Shown: one piece after another, positions 28,410 to 41,787 of the stretch | Position numbering within the stretch: position 1 is the first letter of the stretch | How the letters are laid out: every line of letters starts with the position of its first letter | NCBI GenBank assembly: GCA_025916675.1 | Contig: CP098402.1 | Coordinates: forward strand, 1,855,205 to 1,919,204 | Reading direction: 5' to 3' | Length of the DNA: 64,000 nt | Source: Phycisphaera sp. | GTDB taxonomy: Bacteria > Planctomycetota > Phycisphaerae > Phycisphaerales > UBA1924 | Notes under the pieces: generated by a model | What the model was told of the DNA's origin: nothing | Seen by the model: the letters and a program-made list of their open reading frames with translations, nothing else | Database searches by the model: none | Translations under genes and position numbers: made by a program

Positions 28410-30083
28410 ATGCAGCAATTGAGCCAGACTCGATTTGTGGTGGGCGTCGTGGGCGCGTTCGCCGTCGCGGGCGGCGCGGCCGCCGACGAGCTCATCGTGC
28501 CCAGTCCGGACTATCGCGATATCGCCGCGGCTGTCGCGGCCGCCAGCGCGGGCGACGAGGTCGTGCTGCTGGACGGTGTGTACGAGACCACCGCCGACCG
28601 CAACATCACCATTGGCGTGCCCATCACCATCCGCTCGGCCTCGGGCGACGCGAGCGCCGTCGTGCTGCGCGGGCCCGAGGGCATGTTCCCGTTTCCGACC
28701 GATCGGGCGTTCACCATCAACGCGTCGGTCACGATCGAGGACGTCACCTTCAACCGCTTCTGGGGCGACGTGGGCGGGGCCATCCTCGTCGAAGGGGCCG
28801 ACCTCACCGTCGAGCGCTGCGTGTTCGATGGCAATCGCACGGGCGACGAGTTCGGGTGCCAGACCCGCCTGGGCGGCGCGATCGCGGTGCACGGCGGCGG
28901 CTCGCTGGTAGTCACCGCCAGCACGTTCACCGGCAACGGCGCCGCGCACCCCGGCTGCGCGGGCACGGGCGACGCCCGGGGCGGGGCCATCCACATCGAC
29001 GGCGGGGCGCTCACGATTCTCGACAGCCGGTTCGAGGACAACTCGGTCTCGGCGAACCTCTCGGGCACCGGCGGGGCGATCCACGCCCAGGACGCGATCG
29101 TCACGCTGACCGGCTGCACGCTGGTGGGCAACCGCGTCCGCGGGGTCTTCGTCGGTGGCGGGGCGCTCGAGGTGCGCGGCGGCACGCTGGCCATCATCGG
29201 CGGCGTCGTCCGCGGCAACGAGGCCAGTGGGTCGGGCGATGACTTCGCCAGCGCCGCGGGCGGGGGCATCGCCGCCCGCACCAGCGCCGCCCTGGTCGGC
29301 GTGACCATCGAGGGCAACACCGCCACGAGCGAGTGGGGCTCAACCGGCGGCGGGCTGCTGGCCACCGGCCCGCTCACGGCGGCCAACCTGGCGGTCACCG
29401 GCAACGCCGTGGCCATCGACCTGCCGTGCGACGACCCGGTCTGGGAGTCCTTCGCCGCCGGCGGCGGGCTGTTCATCGGCGCGGCGGCCGAACTGGCCCA
29501 CGCCACCATCACGGGCAACACCTCCGACTGCCAGGGCGGCGACGTCGCGGTCGGCGACGGCGGATCGCTGGCCCTGCGCAACGCCATCGTCCGCGGCGAC
29601 ATCGACGCGGCGGTCATCGACGCGCTCTACAGCAACGTCACCGGCGGGCTGCCCGGCGAGGGCAACATCGACGCCGAGCCCGCCTACGCCGACGGCCTGC
29701 GGCTCGCCAGCGGCTCGCCGGGCGTGGACGCGGGCGCGGTCGCCCTGATCCCCGGCGACGCGTTCGACCTGGACGGCGACGGCGTCTTCTTTGAGCCTCT
29801 GCCGCTGGACCTCGACGGCGGGCCGCGCCAGGCGGACGACCCGGCCACGCCCGACACCGGCGCCGGGCCCGCGCCGATCCCCGACATGGGGGCCTACGAG
29901 CTGGCCGCCACCCCGTGCCTGGCCGACTTCGACGGCGACGGCCAGCTCACCCTCTTCGACTTCCTCGCGTTCCAGAACGCGTTCGACGCGGGCGAGTTTC
30001 GGGCCGACCTGGACGGTGATGGCGAGCTGACCATCTTCGACTTCCTCGTGTTCCAGAACGCCTTCGACGCGGGCTGCGAGTGA
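28410..30083 (+). CDS. Exported beta-helix protein with GC-type dockerin
   Basis: A 557-aa protein. A signal peptide (VVGVVGAFAVAGGAAADE) leads into a right-handed parallel beta-helix: VPSPDYRDIAAAVAAASAGD is the usual entry ('..yatIqaAidaa..GD'), then many turns with GGAI and F.GN motifs as in polymorphic outer-membrane proteins. The C-terminus has the two dockerin-like repeats (DFDGDGQLTLFDFLAFQNAF, DLDGDGELTIFDFLVFQNAF) and stops at AGCE. A GGTCGGG/CCCGACC hairpin lies in the leader (28356-28393), and GAGGGG precedes the ATG. Probably a surface or secreted protein; no catalytic residue assigned. Confidence 0.87.
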   Translation: MQQLSQTRFVVGVVGAFAVAGGAAADELIVPSPDYRDIAAAVAAASAGDEVVLLDGVYETTADRNITIGVPITIRSASGDASAVVLRGPEGMFPFPTDRAFTINASVTIEDVTFNRFWGDVGGAILVEGADLTVERCVFDGNRTGDEFGCQTRLGGAIAVHGGGSLVVTASTFTGNGAAHPGCAGTGDARGGAIHIDGGALTILDSRFEDNSVSANLSGTGGAIHAQDAIVTLTGCTLVGNRVRGVFVGGGALEVRGGTLAIIGGVVRGNEASGSGDDFASAAGGGIAARTSAALVGVTIEGNTATSEWGSTGGGLLATGPLTAANLAVTGNAVAIDLPCDDPVWESFAAGGGLFIGAAAELAHATITGNTSDCQGGDVAVGDGGSLALRNAIVRGDIDAAVIDALYSNVTGGLPGEGNIDAEPAYADGLRLASGSPGVDAGAVALIPGDAFDLDGDGVFFEPLPLDLDGGPRQADDPATPDTGAGPAPIPDMGAYELAATPCLADFDGDGQLTLFDFLAFQNAFDAGEFRADLDGDGELTIFDFLVFQNAFDAGCE

Positions 30084-30186
30084 TCGGACCAATCGGACAC
30101 GGCCGCCAGCGATGATCGGGTTCTAGAAGGCAAATCGGCCCCCACGGGCTCCCAGCCCGGGCCGGACACGACCGCCGGCCTGCCCG

Positions 30187-30354
30187 GACATGACCACCGG
30201 GGCCCCGGACGTGACCACCGGGGCCCCGGACACGACCACCGGGGCCCCGGACACGACCACCGGGGGCCCGGTCATGGCCACCGGGGCCCCGGACATGGCC
30301 ACCGGGGCCCCGGACACGACCACCGGGGGCCCGGGCGAGACACCCGGGCCCCCG
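30187..30354 (+). repeat. 21-bp tandem array (minisatellite)
   Basis: Eight contiguous units of 21 bp, consensus gacacgaccaccggggcccc plus g. Units 1-3 and 5-6 carry the perfect palindrome CGGGGCCCCG; units 4 and 7 change it to gggggcccg; unit 8 is degenerate. The array fills the gap (30084-30399, 316 bp) between the beta-helix gene and the fumarylacetoacetase gene, ends 45 bp before the latter's ATG, and stays in its reading frame without a stop, where it would read as heptads such as TTTGAPD. Confidence 0.95.
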
Positions 30355-30399
30355 GCTCTACACTGCCCCCCACCCGTCCCGAGCCCCGCCGGAGGATCC

Positions 30400-31830
30400 A
30401 TGGCCAGCCCGACCAACACGCCCCCCACCAACCCCCACTACCCCCACTACCCCATCGACGAGACCCACAACCCCAAGCTGGAGAGCTGGGTCGAGAGCGC
30501 CAACGACCCGGGGACGGACTTTCCGATCCAGAATCTGCCGCTGTGCCGCTTCGCACCGCCCGGCGAGTGGGGCCTGTGCGACCATCTTGGCGTCAGGATC
30601 GGAGACAGCATTCTCGACTTGTCGGAGGTCGCCAATCAGGTCGCAATCCACTCGGACTCGGGCGGGCAAGCCGAAGCGGAGATCTACGACGGCGAGAACG
30701 AATCGCAGCTCTTCGCCGAGTGGTCGGGACCATTCGGTCGCAGGATTCGCAAGCGCGTCCAAGAGATCCTCGGCACATCGATCGACGCCGAGACCCGCAA
30801 GAAGCTCGAATCGCACCTGCACGACGTAAAGGAGTGCGAGTTCGATCCTCCGGCGACCATCCACGACTACACCGACTTCTACGCCTCGCTCTACCACGCC
30901 ACCAGCGTCGGCAGCATGTTCCGGCCCGACAACCCCATCCTGCCCAACTACAAGCACATCCCCATCGGCTACCACGGCCGGGCGTCGAGCATCGTGCCCA
31001 GCGGCACCGAGGTGCGTCGGCCCGTCGGCCAGCAGGCGCCCGCCGAGGACGGCGGCAGCCCAAGCTTCGGGCCTTGTAAGCTGCTCGACTACGAATTGGA
31101 GATGGGCGTGGTCGTCGGGCGAGGCAACGAGCTGGGCGAGACGATCGACATCGCCGACGCCGAGCAGCACATGCTCGGCCTGTGCCTGGTCAACGACTGG
31201 TCGGCCCGCGACCTGCAGAAGTGGGAGTACCAGCCGCTGGGCCCGTTCCTGGCCAAGAGCTTCGCGACGACGGTGAGCCCCTACATCGTGACGATGGAGG
31301 CGCTCGCGCCGTTCCGCGTGCCCGCCTTCGAGAGGGACGCGGGCGATCCGTCGCCGCTGCCGTATCTTTCGAGCGAGAGCAACAGCACCGCGGGTGGTTT
31401 TGATATCACGCTCGAGGTGTACCTCGCCAGCGAGCAGATGCGAGCCAAGAACATGGACCCCATCAAGCTGAGTAGCGGCAACTTCAAGGACATGTACTGG
31501 ACCCTCGCCCAGATGCTCACCCACCACAGCTCCAACGGCTGCAACATGCAGCCCGGCGACCTGCTCGCGTCGGGAACAGTCTCGGGTAAGACGCGCAACA
31601 GCCGCGGCTGCCTCTTGGAACTCACCTGGAACGGCGACGCCTTCGCCAATCCCCCCATGCTCGTGCCGGGCACCGACCGCACGCCCATCACCCTGCCCAC
31701 CGGCGAAGAACGCAAGTTCCTGGCCGACGGCGACGAAGTCATCATCAAGGGCTACTGCGAACGCGAGGGCTTCCGCCGCATCGGCTTCGGCGAGTGCCGG
31801 GGGATCATCACGCCGGCGAGGAGCGTGTAA
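30400..31830 (+). CDS. fahA: Fumarylacetoacetase
   Basis: A 476-aa enzyme of tyrosine breakdown that splits fumarylacetoacetate into fumarate and acetoacetate. Family motifs: IQNLPLCRF near the N-terminus, DYTDFYASLYHATSVG (metal-binding Asp), YHGRASSIVPSG with catalytic His, LDYELEMGVVVG (Glu ligands), NDWSARDLQKWEYQPLGPF and GSGT-like ASGTVSGKTRNSRG. I start at ATG 30400 with GGAGG five bases upstream; the frame is open back through the 21-bp array, but that would add a repetitive tail not expected in the family. A REP palindrome follows. Confidence 0.95.
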   Translation: MASPTNTPPTNPHYPHYPIDETHNPKLESWVESANDPGTDFPIQNLPLCRFAPPGEWGLCDHLGVRIGDSILDLSEVANQVAIHSDSGGQAEAEIYDGENESQLFAEWSGPFGRRIRKRVQEILGTSIDAETRKKLESHLHDVKECEFDPPATIHDYTDFYASLYHATSVGSMFRPDNPILPNYKHIPIGYHGRASSIVPSGTEVRRPVGQQAPAEDGGSPSFGPCKLLDYELEMGVVVGRGNELGETIDIADAEQHMLGLCLVNDWSARDLQKWEYQPLGPFLAKSFATTVSPYIVTMEALAPFRVPAFERDAGDPSPLPYLSSESNSTAGGFDITLEVYLASEQMRAKNMDPIKLSSGNFKDMYWTLAQMLTHHSSNGCNMQPGDLLASGTVSGKTRNSRGCLLELTWNGDAFANPPMLVPGTDRTPITLPTGEERKFLADGDEVIIKGYCEREGFRRIGFGECRGIITPARSV

Positions 31831-31848
31831 GAGCGCGTCTTGCACTTC

Positions 31849-31920
31849 ACGAGCCCCTTGCGCGAGCGAGGGGAATGGATGTTCGAGCGTCTATTCCCCT
31901 CGCTCGCGCAAGGGGCTCGT
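31849..31920. repeat. REP-like palindrome, full copy 1
   Basis: Perfect 28-bp inverted repeat (31849-31876 with 31893-31920) around a 16-bp spacer; arms contain gagccccttgcgcgagcgag. It separates fahA from the convergent UPF0316 gene, whose stop codon begins on the last base of the right arm. Probably a bidirectional terminator and member of a dispersed family. Confidence 0.95.
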
Positions 31921-32495
31921 TATTTACGCAGCTGCCCAAACCGCCATGGCTTCTCCGCCGCCCGCACGCTTGGCACGCCAGCGAACCCCGAGACCTTCTC
32001 GGCCCGCTCGACCGACACGATCGCGTCCGGAGCGATACGCGCGACCTTTTCCATGACATCGGGCACGATCTTCCGCCGCACGGCCAGGAAGACCATCTCG
32101 ACCGGGCCCTCGCGCGTGAAGCCGCCACCGCCGCCCTCGCCGTCGACGCGGGTGGTGTGATAGCCCTTGCGCCGCAGGCGTTCGGCCAGAAGCAATTCGG
32201 GGCGTGGGTTGATGACCCGGATCACACGCCAGCCAATGGCAAGGCGTTGCTCGATCTCCATGCCGATGAGCGTGCCCACGGCGAAGCCCGCGCCGTAGGC
32301 GACCAGGGCGACGACGCTGTCGATGTGCTGGATGGCTTTGCCCACGGCCACCATCCAGATCATGACCTCGAAGAAGCCCAGGATGGCCGACGCGTAGCGG
32401 TGCCCGTTCATCACCATGATCATGCGGACCGTGCCGATGGGCACGTCGAGCAGGCGGGCGCTGAAGATAAGCAGCAGGACGTACCATTCGGGCAT
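31920..32495 (-). CDS. UPF0316/DUF2179-like membrane protein
   Basis: A 191-aa protein. Three membrane helices (about 5-25, 35-55, 62-82) precede a cytoplasmic alpha/beta domain with GYHTTRVDGEGGGGG and VFLAVRRKIVPDVMEKV, as in the DUF2179 (YebE/UPF0316) family, whose soluble domain is linked to small-ligand sensing; function unknown. MPEWYVLLLIFSARLLDVPIGTVRMI is the family N-terminus. The TAA stop uses the last base of the REP palindrome, so the gene ends exactly at the repeat. Confidence 0.85.
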   Translation of the reverse strand: MPEWYVLLLIFSARLLDVPIGTVRMIMVMNGHRYASAILGFFEVMIWMVAVGKAIQHIDSVVALVAYGAGFAVGTLIGMEIEQRLAIGWRVIRVINPRPELLLAERLRRKGYHTTRVDGEGGGGGFTREGPVEMVFLAVRRKIVPDVMEKVARIAPDAIVSVERAEKVSGFAGVPSVRAAEKPWRFGQLRK

Positions 32496-32561
32496 GGGTG
32501 GGGTCTCCGGGAAGCCCGAATCTTCCCATCATCCATGCCCGCGATCAAGCGACTTGCCTAG

Positions 32562-34097
32562 CTAGGGCAGGCTGTCGTAGAACTCATCCAGGTCGGCCTT
32601 GAGCTGCTCGAGCGAGGGCTGGTGCACATACATCATGTGCCCGGCCGGGTAGTAGCCCAGGTCGATTCGGTCGCGGTACTCGGGGTCGAGCTTCATGCGG
32701 TTCAGGGTCGTCTCGGCCGCGAAGAAGGGCGTGGCCAGGTCGTGGTGGCCCATCGCCACGAACACCCGCGTGTGCGGCTGGCGGTGCATGGCATCACGCA
32801 GCCGGTCGGCCACGCTGACGTAGCGGTCTCGACCGGCCCCGCCGTAGTCCCAGGGCCACACGCCGGTGAGGATCTCGTAGGGCAGGTCGCTCTCGTACTC
32901 GAGTTCGCCCCGCACGTATGCGTTCAGGGCCTCGGTGTAATTGCTGCGGATAGCCTCGTACGACGAGTCGTACGAGTAACTGTCACCGACATGGTCGCCA
33001 TCGATGCCCTTAAAGCGGGCGTCGAGGCGGCCGACCGTCTTGCCACGATGCCGGAGCAGTTCCTTGGCAAAGCGGGGCAGGCTAACGCGGAGGTCGGCGT
33101 CTTCGAGGTACTGCGGGCTGAGGCCCGTGAGCTCGGACATGGTGGTTCGTACGCGGTTCCGTTCGGCTTCGTCGAGGCTCGCGCCGCGGAGCAGGGCGGG
33201 CAGGTAATCGTCCAGGGCGAACCGCCGGGCCTCGGCGATCACGTCCTCGACGGGCCGCTCCTGCCACTTCTGGGGCAGGGCCTCGTGGTAGTGGGCCGTC
33301 GCGGCGTAGCTGGGCAGGAACATCACGAAGGGCAGGTCGTTGCCCTCGCCGAAGCGGATGGTCTGGAACTCGAGCACCGGGCTGACGAGGATGACGCCGG
33401 ACGTGGCGATGCCGTGGCGCGAGTGCAGCCGCTGGATGAGGCCCGCCGCCCGCGTGGTACCATAGCTCTCGCCGGCGATGATCTTCGTGCTCCTCCACCG
33501 CTGCTCGCGGGTGAGGTACATGCGGATGAAGTCGGCGACCGAGTCCAGGTCGCTCTCGAGCCCGTGGAACTGCTTCTCGCTGGTCTCGCCCTCGGCCCGC
33601 GAGAATCCGGTCGACACCGGATCGATGAACACGAAGTCGCTCTTGTCGAGCAGGCTATGGGCGTTGGGAATCACGCTGTAGGGCGGGGGGCCCGGGTTGC
33701 CCACCTCGTCGGCGTACGCAACGCGCATGGGGCCGAAGATGCCCAGGTGCAGCCAGACGCTGCTGGAGCCCGGGCCGCCGTTGAAGCTGAAGGTGATGGG
33801 GCGCTCGGCGGCGTCGGGGAACTGTGCGCTGTCCGCCCCGCCGTCAATCTTGCGATAAGCCATGTAGAACAGGCTGGCTGTCGGCTCGTCCTTTTCGTTG
33901 ACGAGGGTGATCGTGTCGGCGGTGGCCTCGTAGTGGATCGTCTGGCCGTTGATCTCGACGCTGTGGCGCGTGACGCTGGGGGCGTCGGGGTAGCGCTGGA
34001 AGGTGGCCTTGGGGGTGGGCTCTTGGGGTTCGGGCTCCTGGGCGAGCCCGGCATGGGAAGACAGGATCATCGCGACGAGAAGGGCAAGGTACTTCAT
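32562..34097 (-). CDS. Exported serine carboxypeptidase (peptidase S10 family)
   Basis: About 511 aa with a signal peptide (YLALLVAMILSSHAGLAQ). S10 motifs: SFNGGPGSSSVWLHLG (oxyanion region), catalytic Ser in IIAGESYGTTR, Asp in a VFVAMGHHDLATP segment and His in YYPAGHMMYVHQPS. Also DPVSTGFSRAEG, the family's 'P.GtGfS'. All catalytic elements are present. S10 enzymes cut single residues from peptide C-termini at acid pH. ATG 34097 (MKYLALL); the upstream ATG at 34121 overlaps the REP half site and is less likely. Probably periplasmic. Confidence 0.9.
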   Translation of the reverse strand: MKYLALLVAMILSSHAGLAQEPEPQEPTPKATFQRYPDAPSVTRHSVEINGQTIHYEATADTITLVNEKDEPTASLFYMAYRKIDGGADSAQFPDAAERPITFSFNGGPGSSSVWLHLGIFGPMRVAYADEVGNPGPPPYSVIPNAHSLLDKSDFVFIDPVSTGFSRAEGETSEKQFHGLESDLDSVADFIRMYLTREQRWRSTKIIAGESYGTTRAAGLIQRLHSRHGIATSGVILVSPVLEFQTIRFGEGNDLPFVMFLPSYAATAHYHEALPQKWQERPVEDVIAEARRFALDDYLPALLRGASLDEAERNRVRTTMSELTGLSPQYLEDADLRVSLPRFAKELLRHRGKTVGRLDARFKGIDGDHVGDSYSYDSSYEAIRSNYTEALNAYVRGELEYESDLPYEILTGVWPWDYGGAGRDRYVSVADRLRDAMHRQPHTRVFVAMGHHDLATPFFAAETTLNRMKLDPEYRDRIDLGYYPAGHMMYVHQPSLEQLKADLDEFYDSLP

Positions 34098-34120
34098 GGA
34101 CGATGATATGACCCCGCGCA

Positions 34121-34140
34121 CCGCGCGAGGGGCTCGTTAT
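34121..34140. repeat. REP-like half site
   Basis: The sequence ccgcgcgaggggctcgttat matches the right arm end of the full palindromes at 31849-31920 and 39177-39249, without its inverted partner. It lies between the gltA stop and the carboxypeptidase start. Confidence 0.7.
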
Positions 34141-34158
34141 CGACGAATTGGGAAGCCC

Positions 34159-35289
34159 TTACCGCTTCTCGATCGGCGTGTATGCCACCTTGTGCGGCCC
34201 GACGTAGTTCGTCGTCGGCCGGTACAGACGGTTGTCCTCGAGCTGCTCGATGACGTGGCCGGCCCAGCCCGCCAGGCGGCTGAGGGCGAACATGGGGGTG
34301 AACAGGTCGAGCTTGAGGCCGATGCAGTGGTACGTGGTGGCGCTGTAGAAATCGACGTTGGGGTAGATGCCCTTGCTGGCGACCTCACGCTCCATGACCA
34401 CCTCGATGGCGTGGCTCTTCTCGTACAGGTCCATGTTGCCCGTGTCTTCGGCCAGTTGCTTGGCCAGGGTCTGGAGCTCGCTGGCGCGGGGGTCCTTGGA
34501 CTTGTAGACGCGATGGCCGAAGCCCATGATCTTGTCTTTGTTCTTGAGCTTGTTCGTGACGTAGGTCTCGGCCTCATCAGTGGACTTCAGCTCGTTGAGC
34601 ATGACCATCACGCCCTCGTTGGCGCCGCCGTGCAGCGGGCCGCGGAGGCTACCGATGGCCGCCGACATCGCGCTGTACAGGTCGCTCAGCGTCGAGATGA
34701 CCACGCGGGCGGTGAAGGTCGAGTTGTTGAGCCCGTGGTCGGCGTGGGTGATCATGCAGATGTCGAAGGCCCTCGCCATCGCGGCGGTGGGCTTCTCGCC
34801 ATTGAGCATGTACATGAAGTTCTCGCTGAAGCCCAGGGACTTATCCGCGGGCACGAACGCCTCGCCGCGGCGGTGGCGGTCGAACGCGGCGACGATCGCG
34901 GGCGTGGCGGCCAGGATCCGCAGCGACTTCTCCCGAGCGCTGGGCACGTCGTTGGCGTTCGGATTGGCGTCGAAGAGCGCCAGGGCGCTCACCAGCGTCC
35001 GCAGCACGTGCATCGGCTGGGCGTCCTTGGGCATGCCCTTGACCATCTCCAGCACGCCCTCGGGCGGGTCGTAGTTGGCCCGAAGGCCCTTGGTGAAGGC
35101 GTCGAGCTCGGCCTGGGTGGGCAGCTTCTTGTTCCAAAGCAGATAGACCGTCTCCTCGAAGGTCGAGGAACTGGCCAGGTCGCCGATAGCGATGCCGACG
35201 TACTCCAACACCCCCTGCTGCCCGTCGATGAAGGACATTTCGGTCTCGGCGGCGACAACGCCTTCCAGGCCTTTGCTGAACTCGGGCAT
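34159..35289 (-). CDS. gltA: Citrate synthase
   Basis: A 376-aa citrate synthase, the short Gram-positive/archaeal-like size rather than the 427-aa E. coli form. It condenses acetyl-CoA and oxaloacetate. Motifs: ADHGLNNSTFTARV, LHGGANEGVMVML (catalytic His), GFGHRVYKSKDPRA (catalytic His/Arg), PNVDFYSATTYH (catalytic Asp) and a C-terminal LEDNRLYRPTTNYVG. ATG 35289 has AGGAGG nine bases upstream. A 2-methylcitrate synthase role cannot be excluded from sequence alone, but no propionate genes lie nearby. Confidence 0.94.
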   Translation of the reverse strand: MPEFSKGLEGVVAAETEMSFIDGQQGVLEYVGIAIGDLASSSTFEETVYLLWNKKLPTQAELDAFTKGLRANYDPPEGVLEMVKGMPKDAQPMHVLRTLVSALALFDANPNANDVPSAREKSLRILAATPAIVAAFDRHRRGEAFVPADKSLGFSENFMYMLNGEKPTAAMARAFDICMITHADHGLNNSTFTARVVISTLSDLYSAMSAAIGSLRGPLHGGANEGVMVMLNELKSTDEAETYVTNKLKNKDKIMGFGHRVYKSKDPRASELQTLAKQLAEDTGNMDLYEKSHAIEVVMEREVASKGIYPNVDFYSATTYHCIGLKLDLFTPMFALSRLAGWAGHVIEQLEDNRLYRPTTNYVGPHKVAYTPIEKR

Positions 35290-35480
35290 CTTCTGCGATC
35301 CTCCTGCTGGTGCAAAATGGGCGGGCCGATCGGCTCGCGGGGGTAGTTTTGGGTCGCAGTCTAGTCGGGCTGGTGGTCCGGGGAGGGCCGGGCGAGGGCC
35401 GGGCGAGGGCCCCTGACGAGCCTTTCACACCCAACCCCCGCTGCCGGGGCCTGCGGCGGCTGATTGCGGTACCATCGGCC

Positions 35481-36620
35481 GTGCTGATCCCCCTGGGCAC
35501 CGACCGACCGCTCCGCCGAACCCCGGTGGTGACCTATGCGCTGCTGGCGCTGAACGTCGTGGCATATATGGTCCAATCCGCCCTGACGAAGGACCCACTC
35601 AGCCCGGTCGCGGCGATCGTCTGGAACGCGGTCCTCGTCCCCGGGGTCAGCGGCTGGTGGACCTGGGTGACATACGCCTTCCTCCACGGCAGCCCCCTGC
35701 ACCTGCTGGGCAACATGGTCTTCCTCTGGGTCTTTGCCCAGGCCGTCGAGGACCGCTTCGGCCGCATCGGCTTCTCAGCGTTCTACCTGGTCGGGGCGGT
35801 GGCTACCGGTGGAGCGCACGCGCTCTTCAGCGAGCACGCCGTCGTGGGCGCGTCCGGCGCCGTCGCGTGCTGCACGGGGGCGTACCTGGTGATGTTCCCG
35901 CGGGCCAACGTCAGGGTGCTGTTGCTGCTGTTCGTGGGCGTGACACTGTGGCCGGCGTGGGTGTTCATCGCGCTGGCCATCAGTTGGGACGTCCTCACCT
36001 GGGCCCGCGGCGGTATGGGCGTTGCCGTGTGGGCTCACTTCGGCGGATACGCCTACGGCTTCGCGATCGCGTTCACCCTGCTTGCCTTCCGGGTGGTGCC
36101 GCGCGAGCCGTACGACCTGTTCATGGTCATCAACCAGAAGCGGCGGCGCAACCAGATCCGCAGCGCGGTCCGCAGCGCCGGGCTCGACCAACCCATGGCC
36201 GCCAAGCCCCCGCGCCGAGAGAAGCCTCCATCCCCCGCCGACGCCGCCGCCGAGCTGCGCCGTGGCATCGAGAACGCGCTGAAGGACCGCCGCCCCGGCT
36301 CGGCCGCCACCATGTACCGCCGCCTGATCGAGAACCACGAGAATGCCGAGTCGAGGCTTTCCCGTGACGTGCAACTCGACCTGGCCAACACGCTGTACCA
36401 ACGCAAGCAGCACGAGCTGGCCGCCCGGGCGTACGAGGGCTTCCTGAAGGCCGAGGGCGACGACGACGAGGCCCCCATGGTCCGCGTGCTGCTAGCCCGA
36501 GTGCTGGCCGATCACCTGGACGACGCGGGCCGCGCCAAGGATCTGCTGCGCCAGGCGTTGCTCGAACTGCGCGATCCCCAGCTGCGCGAGCTGGCCCAAG
36601 CCGACCTGGACGCGCTCTAG
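35481..36620 (+). CDS. Rhomboid-family intramembrane protease with TPR-like tail
   Basis: About 379 aa. The N-terminal 200 residues hold six helices of the rhomboid fold: WTWVTYAFLHGSPLHLLGNMVFLW (loop and TM2), catalytic Ser in GASGAVACCTGAY, catalytic His in VWAHFGGYAYG. The C-terminal 160 residues are cytoplasmic and helical with TPR-like repeats (LRRGIENALKDRRPGSAATMY...). GTG 35481 is the likely start (VLIPLGTDRPLRRTP, the usual rhomboid opening); an ATG-less upstream extension is low-complexity. Substrates unknown. Followed by trpF at 14 bp. Confidence 0.88.
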   Translation: MLIPLGTDRPLRRTPVVTYALLALNVVAYMVQSALTKDPLSPVAAIVWNAVLVPGVSGWWTWVTYAFLHGSPLHLLGNMVFLWVFAQAVEDRFGRIGFSAFYLVGAVATGGAHALFSEHAVVGASGAVACCTGAYLVMFPRANVRVLLLLFVGVTLWPAWVFIALAISWDVLTWARGGMGVAVWAHFGGYAYGFAIAFTLLAFRVVPREPYDLFMVINQKRRRNQIRSAVRSAGLDQPMAAKPPRREKPPSPADAAAELRRGIENALKDRRPGSAATMYRRLIENHENAESRLSRDVQLDLANTLYQRKQHELAARAYEGFLKAEGDDDEAPMVRVLLARVLADHLDDAGRAKDLLRQALLELRDPQLRELAQADLDAL

Positions 36621-36634
36621 AAGGAGGCACGCCG

Positions 36635-37267
36635 ATGCCACGAACCCGCATCAAGATCTGTGGCGTGGGCGATATCAAGACCGCCGAGCTGGCCGCCGAC
36701 GCCGGTGCCGACGCCATCGGCCTGGACTTCCGCCCCGATGCCCGCTGCCACGTCGACCCGCATCTGGCGGCCGACATCCTGTCCTCCCTGCCGCCCTTCA
36801 CCACCGCGGTGGCCGTCTATGCCGACCCGACGCTCGACGACTTCCTCGACGCCGAGGCGATCTGCCCCGCCCCCTACACCCAACTCCACGGCCACGAGAA
36901 GGACAACCTCGTCCGTCGCATCGGCCCGGACGCCATCAAGTCCATCAAGCTGGACCCGGCGAACCTCGACGCCGACCTGCGGCACTGGCACGGCATCGAG
37001 GAAGTGTGCGCCATTCTGGTCGAGGCTCCCGCCGAGGCCGATTGGGACGCGCTCGCTCCGAAAGTTGCTCGGGCGATTGCCCTTACTCCAGCGCGGGTTC
37101 TCCTTGCCGGTGGGCTCACACCCGAGAACGTCGAAGGCATCGTGAAGGCAACGAAGCCCTGGGGCGTCAGCGTTTCAGCAGGCGTTGAGGCCGGACCGGG
37201 CGTGAAGGAGGCCAGCAAGTGCCGCGCGTTCTGCCAGGCCGTTCGCTCCGCCGATGTGGCGCGTTGA
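36635..37267 (+). CDS. trpF: Phosphoribosylanthranilate isomerase-like protein
   Basis: A 210-aa TIM barrel resembling TrpF of tryptophan synthesis: [13 protein letters not shown] (catalytic Cys region), [17 protein letters not shown], and [11 protein letters not shown]. Two points differ from the textbook enzyme. The usual catalytic Asp segment (LLDA..GGTG..FDW) reads [14 protein letters not shown], with Glu in place of Asp and no GGTG loop; and GFNFYPKS is replaced by GLDFRPDA. It may be an authentic but divergent TrpF, or a related isomerase. AAGGAGG lies nine bases before the ATG. No other trp gene is in the window. Confidence 0.7.
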
Positions 37268-37337
37268 GGGAATACTCGGCGGTTGTGCCGGCATTCGCAC
37301 GGCTCACCTGTTCCCAACACCCCCACTGGAGACCGCC

Positions 37338-38084
37338 ATGAGCACCATCGACATCAACGGCAAGGTTGCCCTGGTCACCGGCGCCAATCGCGGCATCGGC
37401 AAGGCCATCACAGAGACCCTCCTCGAGAACGGGGTATCCAAGGTCTACGCCGCCGTGCGCAAGCCCGAGAGCGCCCAACCGCTCATCGACAAATACGGCG
37501 ATCAAGTCGAGGCCATCAGATTTGACCTGACCGACGAAGCGAGCATCAAGGCCGCCGCGGGCACCGCGTCGGATACGCAGATCGTCATCGCCAACGCCGG
37601 CGTGCTCCGCACGTCCAGCGCCCTGGACGACGACGCGATCGACTCGATCGAGTTCGAGATGAACAGCAATGTGTACGGGCTCATGCGCATTGCCCGAGCG
37701 TTCGCCCCGGTGCTCAAGGCCAACGGCGGCGGCGCCCTCGTGCAGCTCAACTCGGTCGTATCGGTCAAGACGTTCCCCGACATGGCCACGTACTGCGCCT
37801 CAAAGGCCGCCTCGTACGCCATCACCCAGGCGCTGCGGGCGCAGCTCGGCGAGCAGGGCACCGCCGTGTTCAGCGTACACCCGGGCCCCATCGCCACCGA
37901 CATGGGCAGCCAGGCCGGCCTCGACGACGTGGCCGAGCCGCCAAGCCTGGTCGCCAACGCGATCCTCAAGGCGTTCAAGACCGGGGAGTTTCACATCTGG
38001 CCCGACAGTATGGCCAAGCAGATTGGCGACGCCTACCAGAGCTTCGCCCAGAACGTCGTGGAGGCCGAGATGGCCGAGGCCTGA
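37338..38084 (+). CDS. Short-chain dehydrogenase/reductase
   Basis: A 248-aa classical SDR. Cofactor motif [11 protein letters not shown], structural NAG (IANAGVL), catalytic Ser in LVQLNSVVS and YCASK with Tyr and Lys. The substitution of an Arg after the TGAN motif suggests NADPH use. Ends with PGPIATDMG. The substrate is not predictable. The start is ATG 37338 (MSTIDING), 70 bp after trpF. Followed convergently by the MoeB/ThiF gene after 3 bp. Confidence 0.9.
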
Positions 38085-38087
38085 GCC

Positions 38088-39143
38088 CTACGCCCCGATG
38101 AGCCGCGCGTAGATCGACCGCGCTTCGGCAGGGTCTTCAGTCCCCGAGATGATCGCGCGGCCGTCGGGGAAGATCGTCAGGCCGTATCGCTTGTTGCCCT
38201 GACTCGTTTCGGCCTTCAGCAACGGGCCAACGCGCTTGCATGGGCCGTGGGCGGCGAGGCGCTCCGCAAGCCCACCTAGCGCCACGACCGCTTGGTTCGA
38301 GGGCGTGACCTGCACCGCGCCTCGCCCGCACAGTGCCACGGCTTCGCTGCCCGACGAGCCATCCAGGTAGTCGAACAGACCACGCCCGCAACACCGACAC
38401 GCCGAGCGATCACCCGCAAGGTCTACCAGCCGCAGCCGACGACGCGTGCTCTTGAACAGATCGAAATCGAGCATCGTGCCGCTCAGCAGGTCGAGCCTGC
38501 CCAGCAGCACCTTCATCGCGTCGGCGGCCTGCTGGGCGGCCACGATCGCGACCGAGGGTCCGAGTACGCCCGCGGTGTCGCACGTCGGCACGCTGCCCGA
38601 GGGCGGCGGCTCGGGCAGCACGCACCGCAAGCAAGGCGTCGAGTGATCGCCATTCCCCGGCACGAACGTCGCCGCCATTCCTCGGCTGGCGATCACCCCG
38701 CCGTAGACGTAGGGCACGCCCAGCTTCACCGACACGTCGTTGAGCAGGAACCTCGTCTCGAAGTTGTCGGTACCGTCGAGGATGGCATCGCACTCCTCCG
38801 CCAGCCGTTCGGCGTTCTCGCTTGTCACGTCAGCAGTGACCGGTTCGATCGTGATGGTCGAATTGATCGCGCGCAGCCGCGCTGCGGCGGCGATGGCCTT
38901 GGCGTTCCCAACATCGGCCTCGGCGTACAACGTCTGTCGTTGCAGGTTCGTGGGCTCGACCACGTCACGATCGACGATACGAATGTGCCCGACGCCCGCT
39001 CGCACGAGCAGATCAGCCTGCGCACACCCGAGCGCACCGCATCCAACGATGAGCACCGAGCAACCAGCCAACCGCACCTGCCCGGCGTCACCGATCTCTG
39101 GCAGCAGCTTCTGGCGGTGGTAGCGATCGACCGGCATATCCAT
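38088..39143 (-). CDS. MoeB/ThiF-family adenylyltransferase
   Basis: A 351-aa E1-like enzyme that adenylates the C-terminus of a ubiquitin-like sulfur carrier (MoaD or ThiS). RYHRQKLLPEIG start, nucleotide-binding GCGALGCAQA, Arg finger and Asp in DGTDNFETRFLLND, and catalytic Cys in PTCDTAGVLGP. The zinc site is CLRC plus CRCC. The C-terminus (about 255-351) is not a rhodanese; it ends YGLTIFPDGRAIISGTEDP...ARSIYARLIG, an extension known from some MoeB-like proteins. Which carrier it serves is unclear. ATG 39143 or 39137. Confidence 0.88.
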   Translation of the reverse strand: MDMPVDRYHRQKLLPEIGDAGQVRLAGCSVLIVGCGALGCAQADLLVRAGVGHIRIVDRDVVEPTNLQRQTLYAEADVGNAKAIAAAARLRAINSTITIEPVTADVTSENAERLAEECDAILDGTDNFETRFLLNDVSVKLGVPYVYGGVIASRGMAATFVPGNGDHSTPCLRCVLPEPPPSGSVPTCDTAGVLGPSVAIVAAQQAADAMKVLLGRLDLLSGTMLDFDLFKSTRRRLRLVDLAGDRSACRCCGRGLFDYLDGSSGSEAVALCGRGAVQVTPSNQAVVALGGLAERLAAHGPCKRVGPLLKAETSQGNKRYGLTIFPDGRAIISGTEDPAEARSIYARLIGA

Positions 39144-39176
39144 AAAGAAAGGCTACGCGATCGCACAATACGAAAT

Positions 39177-39249
39177 ACGAGCCCCTCGCGCGAGCGAGGG
39201 GAATGGATGCTGATACACGCAAAACCCCTCGCTCGCGCGAGGGGCTCGT
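39177..39249. repeat. REP-like palindrome, full copy 2
   Basis: Perfect 25-bp inverted repeat (39177-39201 with 39225-39249) around a 23-bp spacer. Arms contain gagcccctcgcgcgagcgag; the spacer begins aatggatg as in copy 1. It lies between rpsG and the MoeB/ThiF gene, both minus, so it probably ends the rpsL-rpsG transcript. Confidence 0.95.
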
Positions 39250-39276
39250 TGGTTGTGCAATCGACTCTGGCTCGCC

Positions 39277-39768
39277 TTACGCGAAGTGAGCGAACGCCTT
39301 GTTCGCGTCGGCCATGCGGTGGACCTGATCGCGAGTGGTCATCGCCTTGCCCTCGCCGCGGGCGGCGTTGTAGAGCTCGTCGGCGATGCGGCCGGCCATC
39401 GGGCGGCCCTTCTCACCCCGAGCGCTCGTAATGATCCAGCGGAACGCGAGGCTCTGCTGGCGGCGGCCCTTCACGGGCTGGGGCACCTGGTAGTTGGCAC
39501 CACCGATGCGCTTCGAGCGCACCTCGACGTAGGGCTTGACGTTATCGATGGCCATCAGAAAGAGCGTCAGGGCGTCCTCGGGGGCGTCCGGGTTGCTCTC
39601 CTTCTTCAGGCGGGCGTCGATCAGGTCCATCGCGTCGTAGATGACCCTGGTGGCGCGGGTCTTCTTGCCATCGCGCATCACGCAGTTGATGAACTTCGCC
39701 AGGGTGATGTCGTTGTAACGGGGATCGGGACGCAGTTGGTCCTCGGAAGCGGTAATCCGACCGGCCAT
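39277..39768 (-). CDS. rpsG: 30S ribosomal protein S7
   Basis: A 163-aa S7, which nucleates assembly of the 30S head on 16S rRNA. Signatures include DPRYNDITLAKFINCVMRDG, PYVEVRSKRIGGANYQVP and QSLAFRWIITSARGEKG. Slightly longer than E. coli S7 in the middle. It follows rpsL by 136 bp, the usual str-operon order, but fusA and tuf do not follow: a REP palindrome and an unrelated gene do, so the str operon is broken here. Confidence 0.96.
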   Translation of the reverse strand: MAGRITASEDQLRPDPRYNDITLAKFINCVMRDGKKTRATRVIYDAMDLIDARLKKESNPDAPEDALTLFLMAIDNVKPYVEVRSKRIGGANYQVPQPVKGRRQQSLAFRWIITSARGEKGRPMAGRIADELYNAARGEGKAMTTRDQVHRMADANKAFAHFA

Positions 39769-39904
39769 GCGAATCTCCTTTGGCTCATCCGTCGACCGTT
39801 CGGGGCCGACCGTTGTTCACCCCGCCATGCACAGAGTGCAGACGGGATTACTTGCCATGAAATCAGAAAAGGCACTTCGGCACGACGCCCAGTGCCCGGG
39901 TTGC

Positions 39905-40276
39905 TTACTTGCCCTTCTTGGTGCCGTACTTCGAGCGGCCCTGCTTGCGACCGTCGACACCCAGGCTGTCCTGCGCACCGCGCACGACGTGGTAGCGCAC
40001 GCCGGGCAGGTCGGGCACGCGTCCGCCGCGCACGAGCACGATGGAGTGTTCCTGGAGGTTGTGGCCCTCGCCACCGATGTAGGCCGTGACCTCGCGGCCG
40101 TTGCTCAGGCGAACACGGGCCACCTTGCGAAGCGCCGAGTTGGGCTTCTTGGGCGTCATCGTCTTCACGCTCAGGCACACGCCGCGACGCTGGGGGCAGC
40201 CCTCGATGTCACGCACCTTGGACTTCACCTTGGGCGTCCGGCGGGGCTTGCGGCAGAGTTGATTGATCGTCGGCAT
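39905..40276 (-). CDS. rpsL: 30S ribosomal protein S12
   Basis: A 123-aa S12 of the decoding centre. [12 protein letters not shown] start, [20 protein letters not shown] (the Lys position of streptomycin resistance is the sensitive form, PKKPNS) and [14 protein letters not shown]. Start and length are typical. The 113-bp gap to the divergent MazG gene contains its promoter; a GATACT box lies on the minus strand near 40290. Confidence 0.97.
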
Positions 40277-40389
40277 AGGCGCGCCAGTATCCTGCTAAGG
40301 GTCTTTGATCCACATGAAACACCCGCCGAGACCTCTCGACAGGGCCACGAGTATAGCGCCCAAGGCCATCTCCGGTCTACCGTGGACGC

Positions 40390-40722
40390 ATGACCAGCAG
40401 CCAGACTCCCAGCCACGCTCCGGATATCAGCCTGCGGGACTTCCAGCGTCTCATCCGCGACCGCTACCACGCCACCGACAGCGCCAGGGGCGTGCCGGGC
40501 ACCTTCATGTGGCTCATCGAGGAGGTGGGCGAGCTGGCCACCGCCCTTCAGGACTGCGCTCCCGACCGAAACCCGAGCCAGGCCCAGCTCGACAACCTCG
40601 AAGAAGAGTTCGCCGACGTGCTTGCCTGGCTGAGCACGCTGGCCAACATCGCCGGCGTCGACCTCTCACAAGCAGTGGGCAAGTACACCGATCCCGGGCG
40701 CGTCGAGGGCGTCAAGCACTAG
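40390..40722 (+). CDS. MazG-like nucleotide pyrophosphohydrolase
   Basis: A 110-aa single-domain MazG/RS21-C6-like protein that would hydrolyse NTPs to NMP and PPi. The metal-binding motif is WLIEEVGELATAL plus EEEFADVLAWLS (E..E...E..D pattern). The N-terminal helix has LRDFQRLIRDRYHATD, the family opening. Single copy, dimeric or tetrameric by family knowledge. A hairpin follows 60 bp downstream. Confidence 0.88.
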   Translation: MTSSQTPSHAPDISLRDFQRLIRDRYHATDSARGVPGTFMWLIEEVGELATALQDCAPDRNPSQAQLDNLEEEFADVLAWLSTLANIAGVDLSQAVGKYTDPGRVEGVKH

Positions 40723-40774
40723 TAAACGAGGCCCTCTGGCGCACACCTGGGCTCTTCTGCCGTCAAGCACCCAC

Positions 40775-40801
40775 AAAAAACGCCCGGGCTCGCGCCCGGG
40801 C
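40775..40801 (-). terminator. Terminator of the sigma factor gene
   Basis: Stem GCCCGGG/CCCGGGC (40782-40788 with 40795-40801). On the minus strand it is followed by six T (aaaaaa on plus at 40775-40780), 26 bp after the sigma stop. On the plus strand CTTGTTT follows, so it may also end the MazG transcript. Confidence 0.88.
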
Positions 40802-40827
40802 CTTGTTTGGTCATGGATGGTCCCGCC

Positions 40828-41787
40828 TCAGCCGGCGCTGCGGGAGCGAGCGGCGGCGGCCATCGCGCGGGCACGGGCACGCTCGGGGCTTACGGCCTCG
40901 CCGGTGCGGGTGCGGTTCTCGCGGAAGAACCTGCTTGGCCGCTCGTCGGTGAGCTGCGAGTTCAGCCGCGTGATCGCCTCGTCGACGATCTGACGCACAC
41001 GCTCGCGGCTGAGACCAACACGCTCGGCGACCTGCTTCAGGGTCAGCGGGTCGCGGCCGTCGAGGCCGAAGCGGGCGTTCAGGATGGCCGCCTCCCGATC
41101 GTCGATGGTCTCCATCAGACGGCGGAGCGTGGCCATCTCGTCGGCCTGGAGCGGCGTCTCGGCCGGCGGGCCGTAGCGATCGTCGGCGACCACGTCCGAA
41201 AGGCCGGGCGTGTTCTCGTCGCCGGTGACCGATTGGGTCTGGGCGCGGGTGGCCCGGATGGCGCGGCGGATGGCGCGGACCTTCTTGACGGGCAATTCCA
41301 TGGCGTCGGCGACCTGCTCGATGGAGGGGGCAAAGCCCGTCTCGCCCTCGAGATCACGGGAGACCTGACGCATGCGGGAGATCAGCTCGACCATGTAGGC
41401 CGGAACGTGGATCGGCCGCGAGGCGTTGATCAGGGCACGCTTGATGGCCTGCTTGATCCACCACGAGGCGTACGTGCTGAAGCGGGCGCCCTGGTCTGGG
41501 TCGAAACCCTCGACAGCGCGCATCAGCCCGATGTTGCCCTCCTCGATCAGGTCCGAGAGGACCAGGCCGCGGTTGGCAAAGTTCTTGGCGATCGCCACGA
41601 CCAGCCGAAGGTTGGCCCGGATCATGCGCTCGCGTGCCTCGGGGCAGCTCTGGCGCTGGATCCGATAACCCAGCTCGCGCTCCTCCTCAGCCGTGAGCAG
41701 CGGCGTTCGTTTGATTTCGTCTAAGTACAGTTGGAGCTCGGAGCGGACCCCCGAACCCAAACTCTGATTACCGGCCATTGCACTCAT
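40828..41787 (-). CDS. RNA polymerase sigma-70 family factor (RpoD/RpoS/SigA type)
   Basis: About 319 aa, with regions 1.2 (LQLYLDEIKRTPLLTAEEE), 2 (DLIEEGNIGLMRAVEGFDP, RFSTYASWWIKQAI), 3 (PAYMVELISRMRQV) and 4 (LTLKQVAERVGLSRERVRQI). It lacks region 1.1 and the long insert of housekeeping RpoD, so it is either a short primary sigma or a group 2 factor. The C-terminus is Arg/Ala-rich. I start at ATG 41787, where an AGGTG lies eight bases upstream; ATG 41793 and 41778 are alternatives. A strong terminator follows. Confidence 0.92.
   Translation of the reverse strand: MSAMAGNQSLGSGVRSELQLYLDEIKRTPLLTAEEERELGYRIQRQSCPEARERMIRANLRLVVAIAKNFANRGLVLSDLIEEGNIGLMRAVEGFDPDQGARFSTYASWWIKQAIKRALINASRPIHVPAYMVELISRMRQVSRDLEGETGFAPSIEQVADAMELPVKKVRAIRRAIRATRAQTQSVTGDENTPGLSDVVADDRYGPPAETPLQADEMATLRRLMETIDDREAAILNARFGLDGRDPLTLKQVAERVGLSRERVRQIVDEAITRLNSQLTDERPSRFFRENRTRTGEAVSPERARARAMAAAARSRSAG

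Follow-up and report, generated by a model that had tools for sequence, protein, structure and literature searches.

REPIN-like hairpin doublets in a planctomycete genome and their probable mobilization by a class 3 HUH/Y1 transposase

Two inverted repeats in a 64,000-nt stretch of Phycisphaera sp. DNA (the window; C1:1855205–1919204 of the single-contig, 3.6-Mb host genome G000) are interpreted here as non-autonomous doublets resembling REPINs, the inverted pairs formed by repetitive extragenic palindromic (REP) sequences. With a probability that we put at about 0.85, they derive from a class 3 HUH/Y1 transposase, which most likely also mobilized them in trans. The evidence lies in the copies of the repeat across the genome, its association with a transposase gene, the anatomy of its arms, its co-distribution with the enzyme among relatives and the differing positions of the doublets in congeners.

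Results

The repeat family in the host genome

Folded as single-stranded DNA, the 25-nt arm of the doublets consists of an unpaired foot, ACGAG, and an 8-bp stem, CCCCTCGC/GCGAGGGG, closed by a GCGA loop; the stem of doublet 1 has CCCCTTGC. This is the build of a REP palindrome (20–50 nt with an unpaired tetranucleotide at one end), with a foot of 5 nt that is not of the GTAG type. In the alternative fold, the two arms pair with each other into a single hairpin of 34 bp in doublet 1 and 25 bp in doublet 2. Compared with shuffled sequences, DNA folding of the doublets gave z-scores of −14.2 and −12.6, respectively, and the left arms folded alone gave −2.4 and −3.4; on the plus strand, where they lack the 5′ foot, the right arms scored −2.9 in doublet 2 and a weak −0.46 in doublet 1. 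Since each arm is a hairpin of its own, the element can be described as a pair of short hairpins as well as one long palindrome.

The earlier note on this DNA had proposed that copies be counted across the genome. The 24-nt arm, with up to three mismatches, has 42 matches in the genome (21 per strand), three of which are opposite-strand readings of near-palindromic places, leaving 39 distinct places; half of the matches (21 of 42) are identical to the consensus, and the reversed arm, searched in the same way over the whole genome as a control, gave none. A gapped arm pattern matched exactly 26 times, 13 per strand. Extended to six mismatches, the catalogue holds 45 arms in 25 loci. Sixteen are doublets with outward-facing feet, with spacers of 22–26 nt in 12 cases and of 15, 33, 43 and 57 nt in the others; the remainder comprises the pair flanking the transposase gene described below, one weak inward-facing pair, five single arms and two weak arms near singles. 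The family thus has the dispersed, mostly extragenic copies in inverted doublets that characterize REPs and REPINs. In the two other elements of the catalogue (C1:1980378–1980407 and 2856246–2856275) a single stem-loop carries a foot on each side, which is the form expected after central deletion of a doublet.

The flanks of the elements showed a mild preference for A on the 5′ side of the foot (28 of 48 flanks, a total that includes five flanks of single arms with no foot beside them). A further inverted repeat around the element scored 11, 9 and 8 at three of 24 loci, against a 95th percentile of 6 and a maximum of 9 in a null of 200 random pairs with 30-nt flanks, so that only one locus exceeded the null maximum. 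As a separate observation, another dispersed repeat, of the type GAACGCGAAGGTCGCGAAGGGCGCGAAG, adjoins several arms in the host genome and in the congener G001 (L009, L010, L012, L028 and L036).

A transposase gene framed by the same arms

A gene for a Y1 transposase of 156 amino acids (G000:C1:97002–97472) lies between inverted copies of the arm at 96938–96962 (plus strand) and 97502–97526 (minus strand), starting 39 bp past the left arm and ending 29 bp short of the right one; as in REP and REPIN systems, a cognate Y1 gene is therefore flanked by the repeat itself. Just inside these arms stand AATAGACC and AATGGACG, as in the doublets, and the consensus of 34 inner ends is AATGGACG or near it. 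The doublets, which share their inner ends with the transposase element, are thus what internal deletion of that element would leave.

The protein matched the Pfam family Y1_Tnp (PF01797) above its cut-off (E 2.4e-8), and a search with this profile in seven genomes of the genus found two genes in the host genome and one in G003. The frame is open, and the HUH, tryptophan and tyrosine motifs (NHVH, VWTK and YVRNHQ) are intact; among 77 relatives, NH[VIL]H was found in 76, W[TAV] in 72 and Y-x4-Q in 65. With the NCBIfam models REP_Tyr_transpos (NF047646) and transpos_IS200 (NF033573, IS200/IS605), the enzyme scored 32.3 and 35.4 bits, below the respective cut-offs of 80 and 55, and 25 of 27 relatives matched NF047646 at E≤0.001, the first member with 26.8 bits. 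For fold comparison, a 76%-identical homologue (L095) took the place of the host protein. Its AlphaFold model (pLDDT 89.6) matched solved IS200, IS608, ISDra2 and Sulfolobus transposases, with Z-scores of 13.4–14.6 over the best 14 entries (2ec2, 14.6; 2vju, 14.2), as well as the RAYT–REP complex 4er8 (Z 10.5; RAYT, REP-associated tyrosine transposase), so that the host enzyme may be predicted to adopt the HUH-Y1 fold.

All three motifs given for class 3 TnpA-Y1 enzymes (NHVH, W[TA] and Y-x4-Q) are present, and by motif the enzyme appears to fit this class of Quentin et al. (2018, PMC6006769). Judged from its sequence, it is not a GTAG-type RAYT (class 2 TnpA-REP), and the foot beside the hairpin reads ACGAG in this family and CCGAG at the second gene described below, not GT[AG]G. 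The suggestion in the earlier note that a RAYT-type transposase might have spread the palindromes, though none was seen, therefore stands with one qualification: there is a Y1 (IS200-like) gene flanked by the same arms, located outside the window, which is not a classical GTAG-type RAYT.

A second transposase–repeat pair

The second Y1 gene of the host genome (G000:C1:1762168–1762617; L094), 44% identical to the first, has its own inverted arm pair, CCGAG followed by CCGCGTGC-GTGA-GCACGCGG. With up to three mismatches, this arm has 45 matches in the genome, 13 of them exact, including the two of the flanking pair. In seven of the 45, the stem is changed on both sides (GTGC/GCAC to GAGC/GCTC, a T-A to A-T exchange), a sign of the stem being kept.

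Homologues and repeats in relatives

In a sample of 301 genomes of the order, 87 had a homologue of the transposase at E≤1e-5. Of 30 homologue loci, 28 could be anchored (all but L054 and L069), and 24 of these had flanking inverted repeats scoring above all 30 mononucleotide shuffles, the misses being L057, L060, L063 and L070. A scan of named genomes yielded 361 relatives, the best 80 of which were kept; these are mostly metagenome assemblies of Phycisphaerales or other Planctomycetota, together with some labelled Acidobacteria or Vicinamibacteraceae, Dehalococcoidia, Myxococcota and Proteobacteria. Flanks were long enough in 77 of the 80, and in 65 of the 77 the flanking inverted repeats outscored every one of 100 shuffles; 43 of these 65 loci also fit a foot-and-loop pattern. 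The flank shuffles preserve base composition only, and the 30-locus and 80-locus sets are not independent, since many genomes occur in both. Alignment A1 was built from 20 of the 30 loci, after removal of those lacking a usable anchor or stop; of the 38 rows first listed for alignment A2, 27 remain, since L102 and L121 were dropped for a stop in the matched stretch and L116, L117, L122, L131, L136, L138, L145, L160 and L172 were removed along with them. At one locus (L046, the same as L096) the upstream arm is in reverse orientation.

When loops were left unconstrained, 15 of 18 loci had G-N-N-A, 13 of these being GNRA, with GCAA, GCGA and GTGA the commonest. Distance between arms correlated with distance between transposases (r 0.34, reached in none of 3000 permutations) over 49 of 64 loci, 14 having failed to anchor and one having been dropped, and with some anchored strings off by a few bases; this test supersedes an earlier one on 18 loci (r 0.43, none of 5000). 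Anchoring required [GT]A[GA]C, so the foot pattern is present in 49 of 49 by construction; C stands first in the foot in 13 of the 49. In an observation of another kind, the open frames of L053, L061, L068, L071 and L072 continue past the usual end into the residues PLPHGRGS, an extension encoded, as worked out by hand, by the reverse strand of the arm of those homologues.

The arm of the host family itself, with up to two mismatches, has any match at all in 17 of the 301 genomes. The counts are highest in G020 (260), the host genome (39), G279 (18) and G003 (17), followed by G006 (9) and the rest with five or fewer. The first four are also the four genomes with the closest transposases (62%, 100%, 61% and 76% identity, respectively), a coincidence with a probability of about 3e-9 if genomes were independent, which they are not (two share a genus).

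Doublet sites in congeners

About 200–230 nt downstream of the gene were read at each of four sites in six congeners, which are 75–95% identical to the host in marker proteins. At the rpsG site, none of the six has the doublet: an intrinsic terminator (a CCGCGA-type stem with a T run) is found in four, a different hairpin followed by T residues in G006, and neither in G002. At the site of doublet 1, the search for the neighbour gene succeeded in four of the congeners. Two of them, G004 and G005, have the same neighbours and no doublet; in G006 the neighbour is a different one, and in G001 there is a doublet (C21:7345–7429; L082) with the same kind of foot (ACGAA), GTGA loops and other stems. 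The serS doublet is present in G003 with a different spacer and was not seen in the other five, and the ubiD doublet was not seen in any of the six. Doublet positions are not conserved among congeners. The copies, the arm-flanked transposase and these varying positions, a comparison that the earlier note had itself proposed, all favour its reading of the palindromes as REP-like mobile elements.

Features of the window and gene context

The inverted repeats described in the earlier note were borne out by a check of the sequence, in position and in arm length (Table 1): doublet 1 has 28 perfect base pairs of arm (31849–31876/31893–31920), or 36 nt at 92% when extended, and doublet 2 has 25. Both spacers begin with AATGGATG, in agreement with the shared start ggatg, and the half site placed near 34121–34140 is an exact 16-nt copy of GCGCGAGGGGCTCGTT. 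This 16-mer has five matches in the window with up to two mismatches, as compared with 0.21 expected; the 25-nt arm has four with up to three, as compared with 0.00 in shuffles. One detail needs correction: position 31920, taken as the first base of a reverse-strand stop codon, is the last base of the TAA (31922–31920).

Table 1. Doublets, arms and arm remnant in the window (window coordinates)
Feature	Position	Strand	Description
REPIN-like doublet 1	31849–31920	no strand	72 bp, 22-nt spacer
Doublet 1, left arm	31849–31873	+	Foot ACGAG, stem CCCCTTGC/GCGAGGGG with one T-G pair, loop GCGA
Doublet 1, spacer	31874–31895		22 nt; ends AATGGATG / AATAGACG, like the inner ends of the transposase element
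Doublet 1, right arm	31896–31920	−	Same sequence as left arm, on the minus strand
Arm remnant, outer half	34123–34138	−	Between citrate synthase and peptidase S10 genes
REPIN-like doublet 2	39177–39249	no strand	73 bp, 23-nt spacer
Doublet 2, left arm	39177–39201	+	Consensus sequence
Doublet 2, arm nearest S7 gene	39225–39249	−	Consensus; followed by TTTTGCG on the minus strand, AATGGACG being replaced

By Pfam, doublet 1 lies between convergent genes for a fumarylacetoacetase and a DUF5698/DUF2179 protein, and doublet 2 between the genes for ribosomal protein S7 (rpsG) and a ThiF-family protein, both on the minus strand. A 21-bp tandem repeat of 8.1 copies (window 30183–30352) occupies the start of the fumarylacetoacetase frame, where Pfam similarity begins only at residue 114, so that the true start may lie further downstream. 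An Rfam search of window positions 29500–41500 matched doublet 1 to eukaryotic microRNA models only, at 34.5 bits against a gathering threshold of 124 and 29.6 against 83; these matches are an artefact of the perfect hairpin.

Gene context was derived from a crude caller based on GC content, and gene pairs in the window were called in nearly the same way. Of the 25 loci, 20 are intergenic with both neighbours assigned and one is unassigned. Eleven of the 20 lie between convergent genes, seven between tandem and two between divergent ones; convergent pairs make up 8 of the 52 adjacent gene pairs in the window (Fisher p 0.0019). The convergent placement of these elements fits what Di Nocera et al. 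(2013, PMC3733652) describe for REPs of other bacteria, which occur for the most part where neighbouring genes are unidirectional or convergent.

Discussion

In the favoured reading, the doublets have lost the gene; what they retain is the arms and, from the element ends, about 8–10 nt of AATGGACG-like sequence just inside them. By analogy with IS200/IS605 elements and with the TnpA-REP of E. coli, as treated by Corneloup et al. (2021, PMC8266576), the enzyme would bind the folded arm in single-stranded DNA, read the unpaired foot and cleave beside it with its tyrosine; the ends would then be joined and the doublet carried to a new single-stranded target. Insertions would survive mainly beside gene ends, often convergent ones, where a hairpin may be harmless or usable as a terminator.

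A number of observations weigh against derivation from, and mobilization by, the class 3 transposase. The correlation between arm and transposase distances also reflects shared descent. Of five congeners in which no Y1 gene was detected, four have arm matches (1, 3, 5 and 9) and one has none, so some copies persist, or arose, without a gene that is currently present; arms with the same foot and other stems are likewise found across the genus. In the second family, 12 of the 45 matches carry a one-sided change that breaks the very stem pair exchanged on both sides elsewhere. Four of the 25 loci were called within an open reading frame by the crude caller. Across 17 elements, target duplication did not exceed that of shuffled sequences (sum 12, shuffle mean 7.9; 226 of 2000 shuffles reached this value), and no shared outer target motif emerged, the best 6-mer occurring in 7 of 24 loci against a null mean of 7.0; both results are compatible with an IS200-like mode but count as negative evidence. 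The doublet of G001 at the place equivalent to that of doublet 1 might indicate a favoured or an ancestral place, and the flanks at serS are different even outside the element. With congeners only 75–95% identical, no base-exact empty site could be drawn, and no transposition event was seen in the comparisons at the four sites.

The main rival, which we regard as unlikely, is that of a fossil family, spread once by the class 3 enzyme and now inert, whose copies drift has retained or removed and gene conversion between arms has reshaped. A family of only about 39 places with a single copy of the cognate gene, several damaged or half arms, and a stem change common to both arms of doublet 1, as would result from arm-to-arm correction, are consistent with such a history. 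Against it stand the copies identical to the 24-nt consensus and the open transposase frame with its intact motifs, by which activity looks recent or continuing.

Far less probable is an origin as ordinary bidirectional transcription terminators, alike by chance and kept by selection at gene ends. RNA hairpins of the doublets are very stable, convergent sites are enriched, in seven of the 11 convergent elements the genes on either side lie no more than about 25 bp away, and the rpsG doublet stands where four of six congeners have a terminator. Nevertheless, termination would need neither a near-identical 25-nt sequence in some 39 places nor its unpaired foot, the usual inner flank is AATGG with no T run, the arms border a transposase gene whose presence their abundance follows, and the doublet is absent from the same place in most of the congeners inspected; as an origin, this explanation is largely refuted. 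Least probable of all are classical miniature inverted-repeat transposable elements of a DDE transposon with 25-bp terminal inverted repeats: the size of about 72 bp and the perfect terminal repeats would suit them, whereas the lack of target duplication above shuffles, the hairpin within each arm and the HUH/Y1 nature of the transposase found between arms, where no DDE transposase was searched for, do not.

Mobilization by the class 3 enzyme could be extended into a broader, decidedly speculative picture, in which class 3 HUH transposases would form a large REPtron lineage of Phycisphaerales-type planctomycetes with a code of its own: an unpaired GAG-type foot and a G-N-N-A loop would be kept while stems diverged with each enzyme, giving two REPIN families in one genome, and doublets would insert into terminator hairpins or take their place, then acting as gene-end signals. 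By the same tentative account, a doublet with TTTT directly after its first arm would have supplanted, at rpsG, the intrinsic terminator of four of six congeners, and the three loci set within a further inverted repeat may be insertions of this kind. Use as a terminator there is suggested by the position and the TTTT in the sequence; a terminator scan found the distal arm of doublet 2 terminator-like and did not list the arm adjoining rpsG. Terminator replacement at rpsG and the presence of two enzyme–repeat pairs in one genome are the leads worth more. Paired enzymes of one host would allow the recognition code (foot, loop and stem) to be tested; the bench work on REP recognition treated by Corneloup et al. 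concerns GTAG elements, in E. coli and two others. With two class 3-like genes, each with a cognate repeat family at about 40 places, the single-contig host genome offers a compact case, complemented by relatives with 0 to 260 arm matches.

Among known systems, the REPINs of Bertels and Rainey (2011, PMC3116915) share with these elements the inverted REP doublets with a spacer, the extragenic and dispersed placement, the link to Y1 enzymes and the presence of two or more families in a genome, each close to a transposase of its own; here, however, the foot is not GTAG, the places number about 39 and the transposase is of another class. The systems treated by Di Nocera et al., namely GTAG REPs with RAYT REPtrons, TIRtrons and CGTC REPs, have convergent or tandem placement and a repeat-flanked transposase in common with ours, and double palindromic terminal inverted repeats (TIRs) are mentioned for such systems. 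The REPs of SBW25 are given there as GTAG-tagged; the foot found here is neither GTAG nor CGTC, and, by eye, the arm GGGGAATG does not fit the TIR motif GGGGWSAS. The two single-stem-loop elements are like the double-foot REPs described by Quentin et al., although the published ones belong to subclass 2.4.

The closest likeness is to the class 3 TnpA-Y1 proteins, which Quentin et al. characterize, for the most part from Planctomycetes, Acidobacteria and Proteobacteria, by Y-x4-Q, W[TA], a CnGA foot, atypical secondary structures and REP-like genomic copies, some 600 of them in Solibacter usitatus. Shared with the system described here are planctomycete hosts, NHVH, W[TA], Y-x4-Q, a conserved N-terminus and gene-flanking hairpins repeated in the genome. 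The published foot CnGA differs from that of the first family, which reads ACGA-G, with G-A at the same place and A first, whereas the arms of the second gene read CCGA and fit it. Class 3 proteins were rare in that survey (<0.3% of species), as compared with a homologue in 87 of 301 genomes of the order here, of which the weaker may belong to other classes; on few examples, Quentin et al. proposed that class 3 might connect IS200 insertion sequences with REPtrons. Beyond Quentin et al. and Di Nocera et al., the open-access papers searched included none that appears to describe these planctomycete repeats. Class 3 enzymes with REP-like copies in Planctomycetes are thus already known, and the pair described here is a further, well-supported example.

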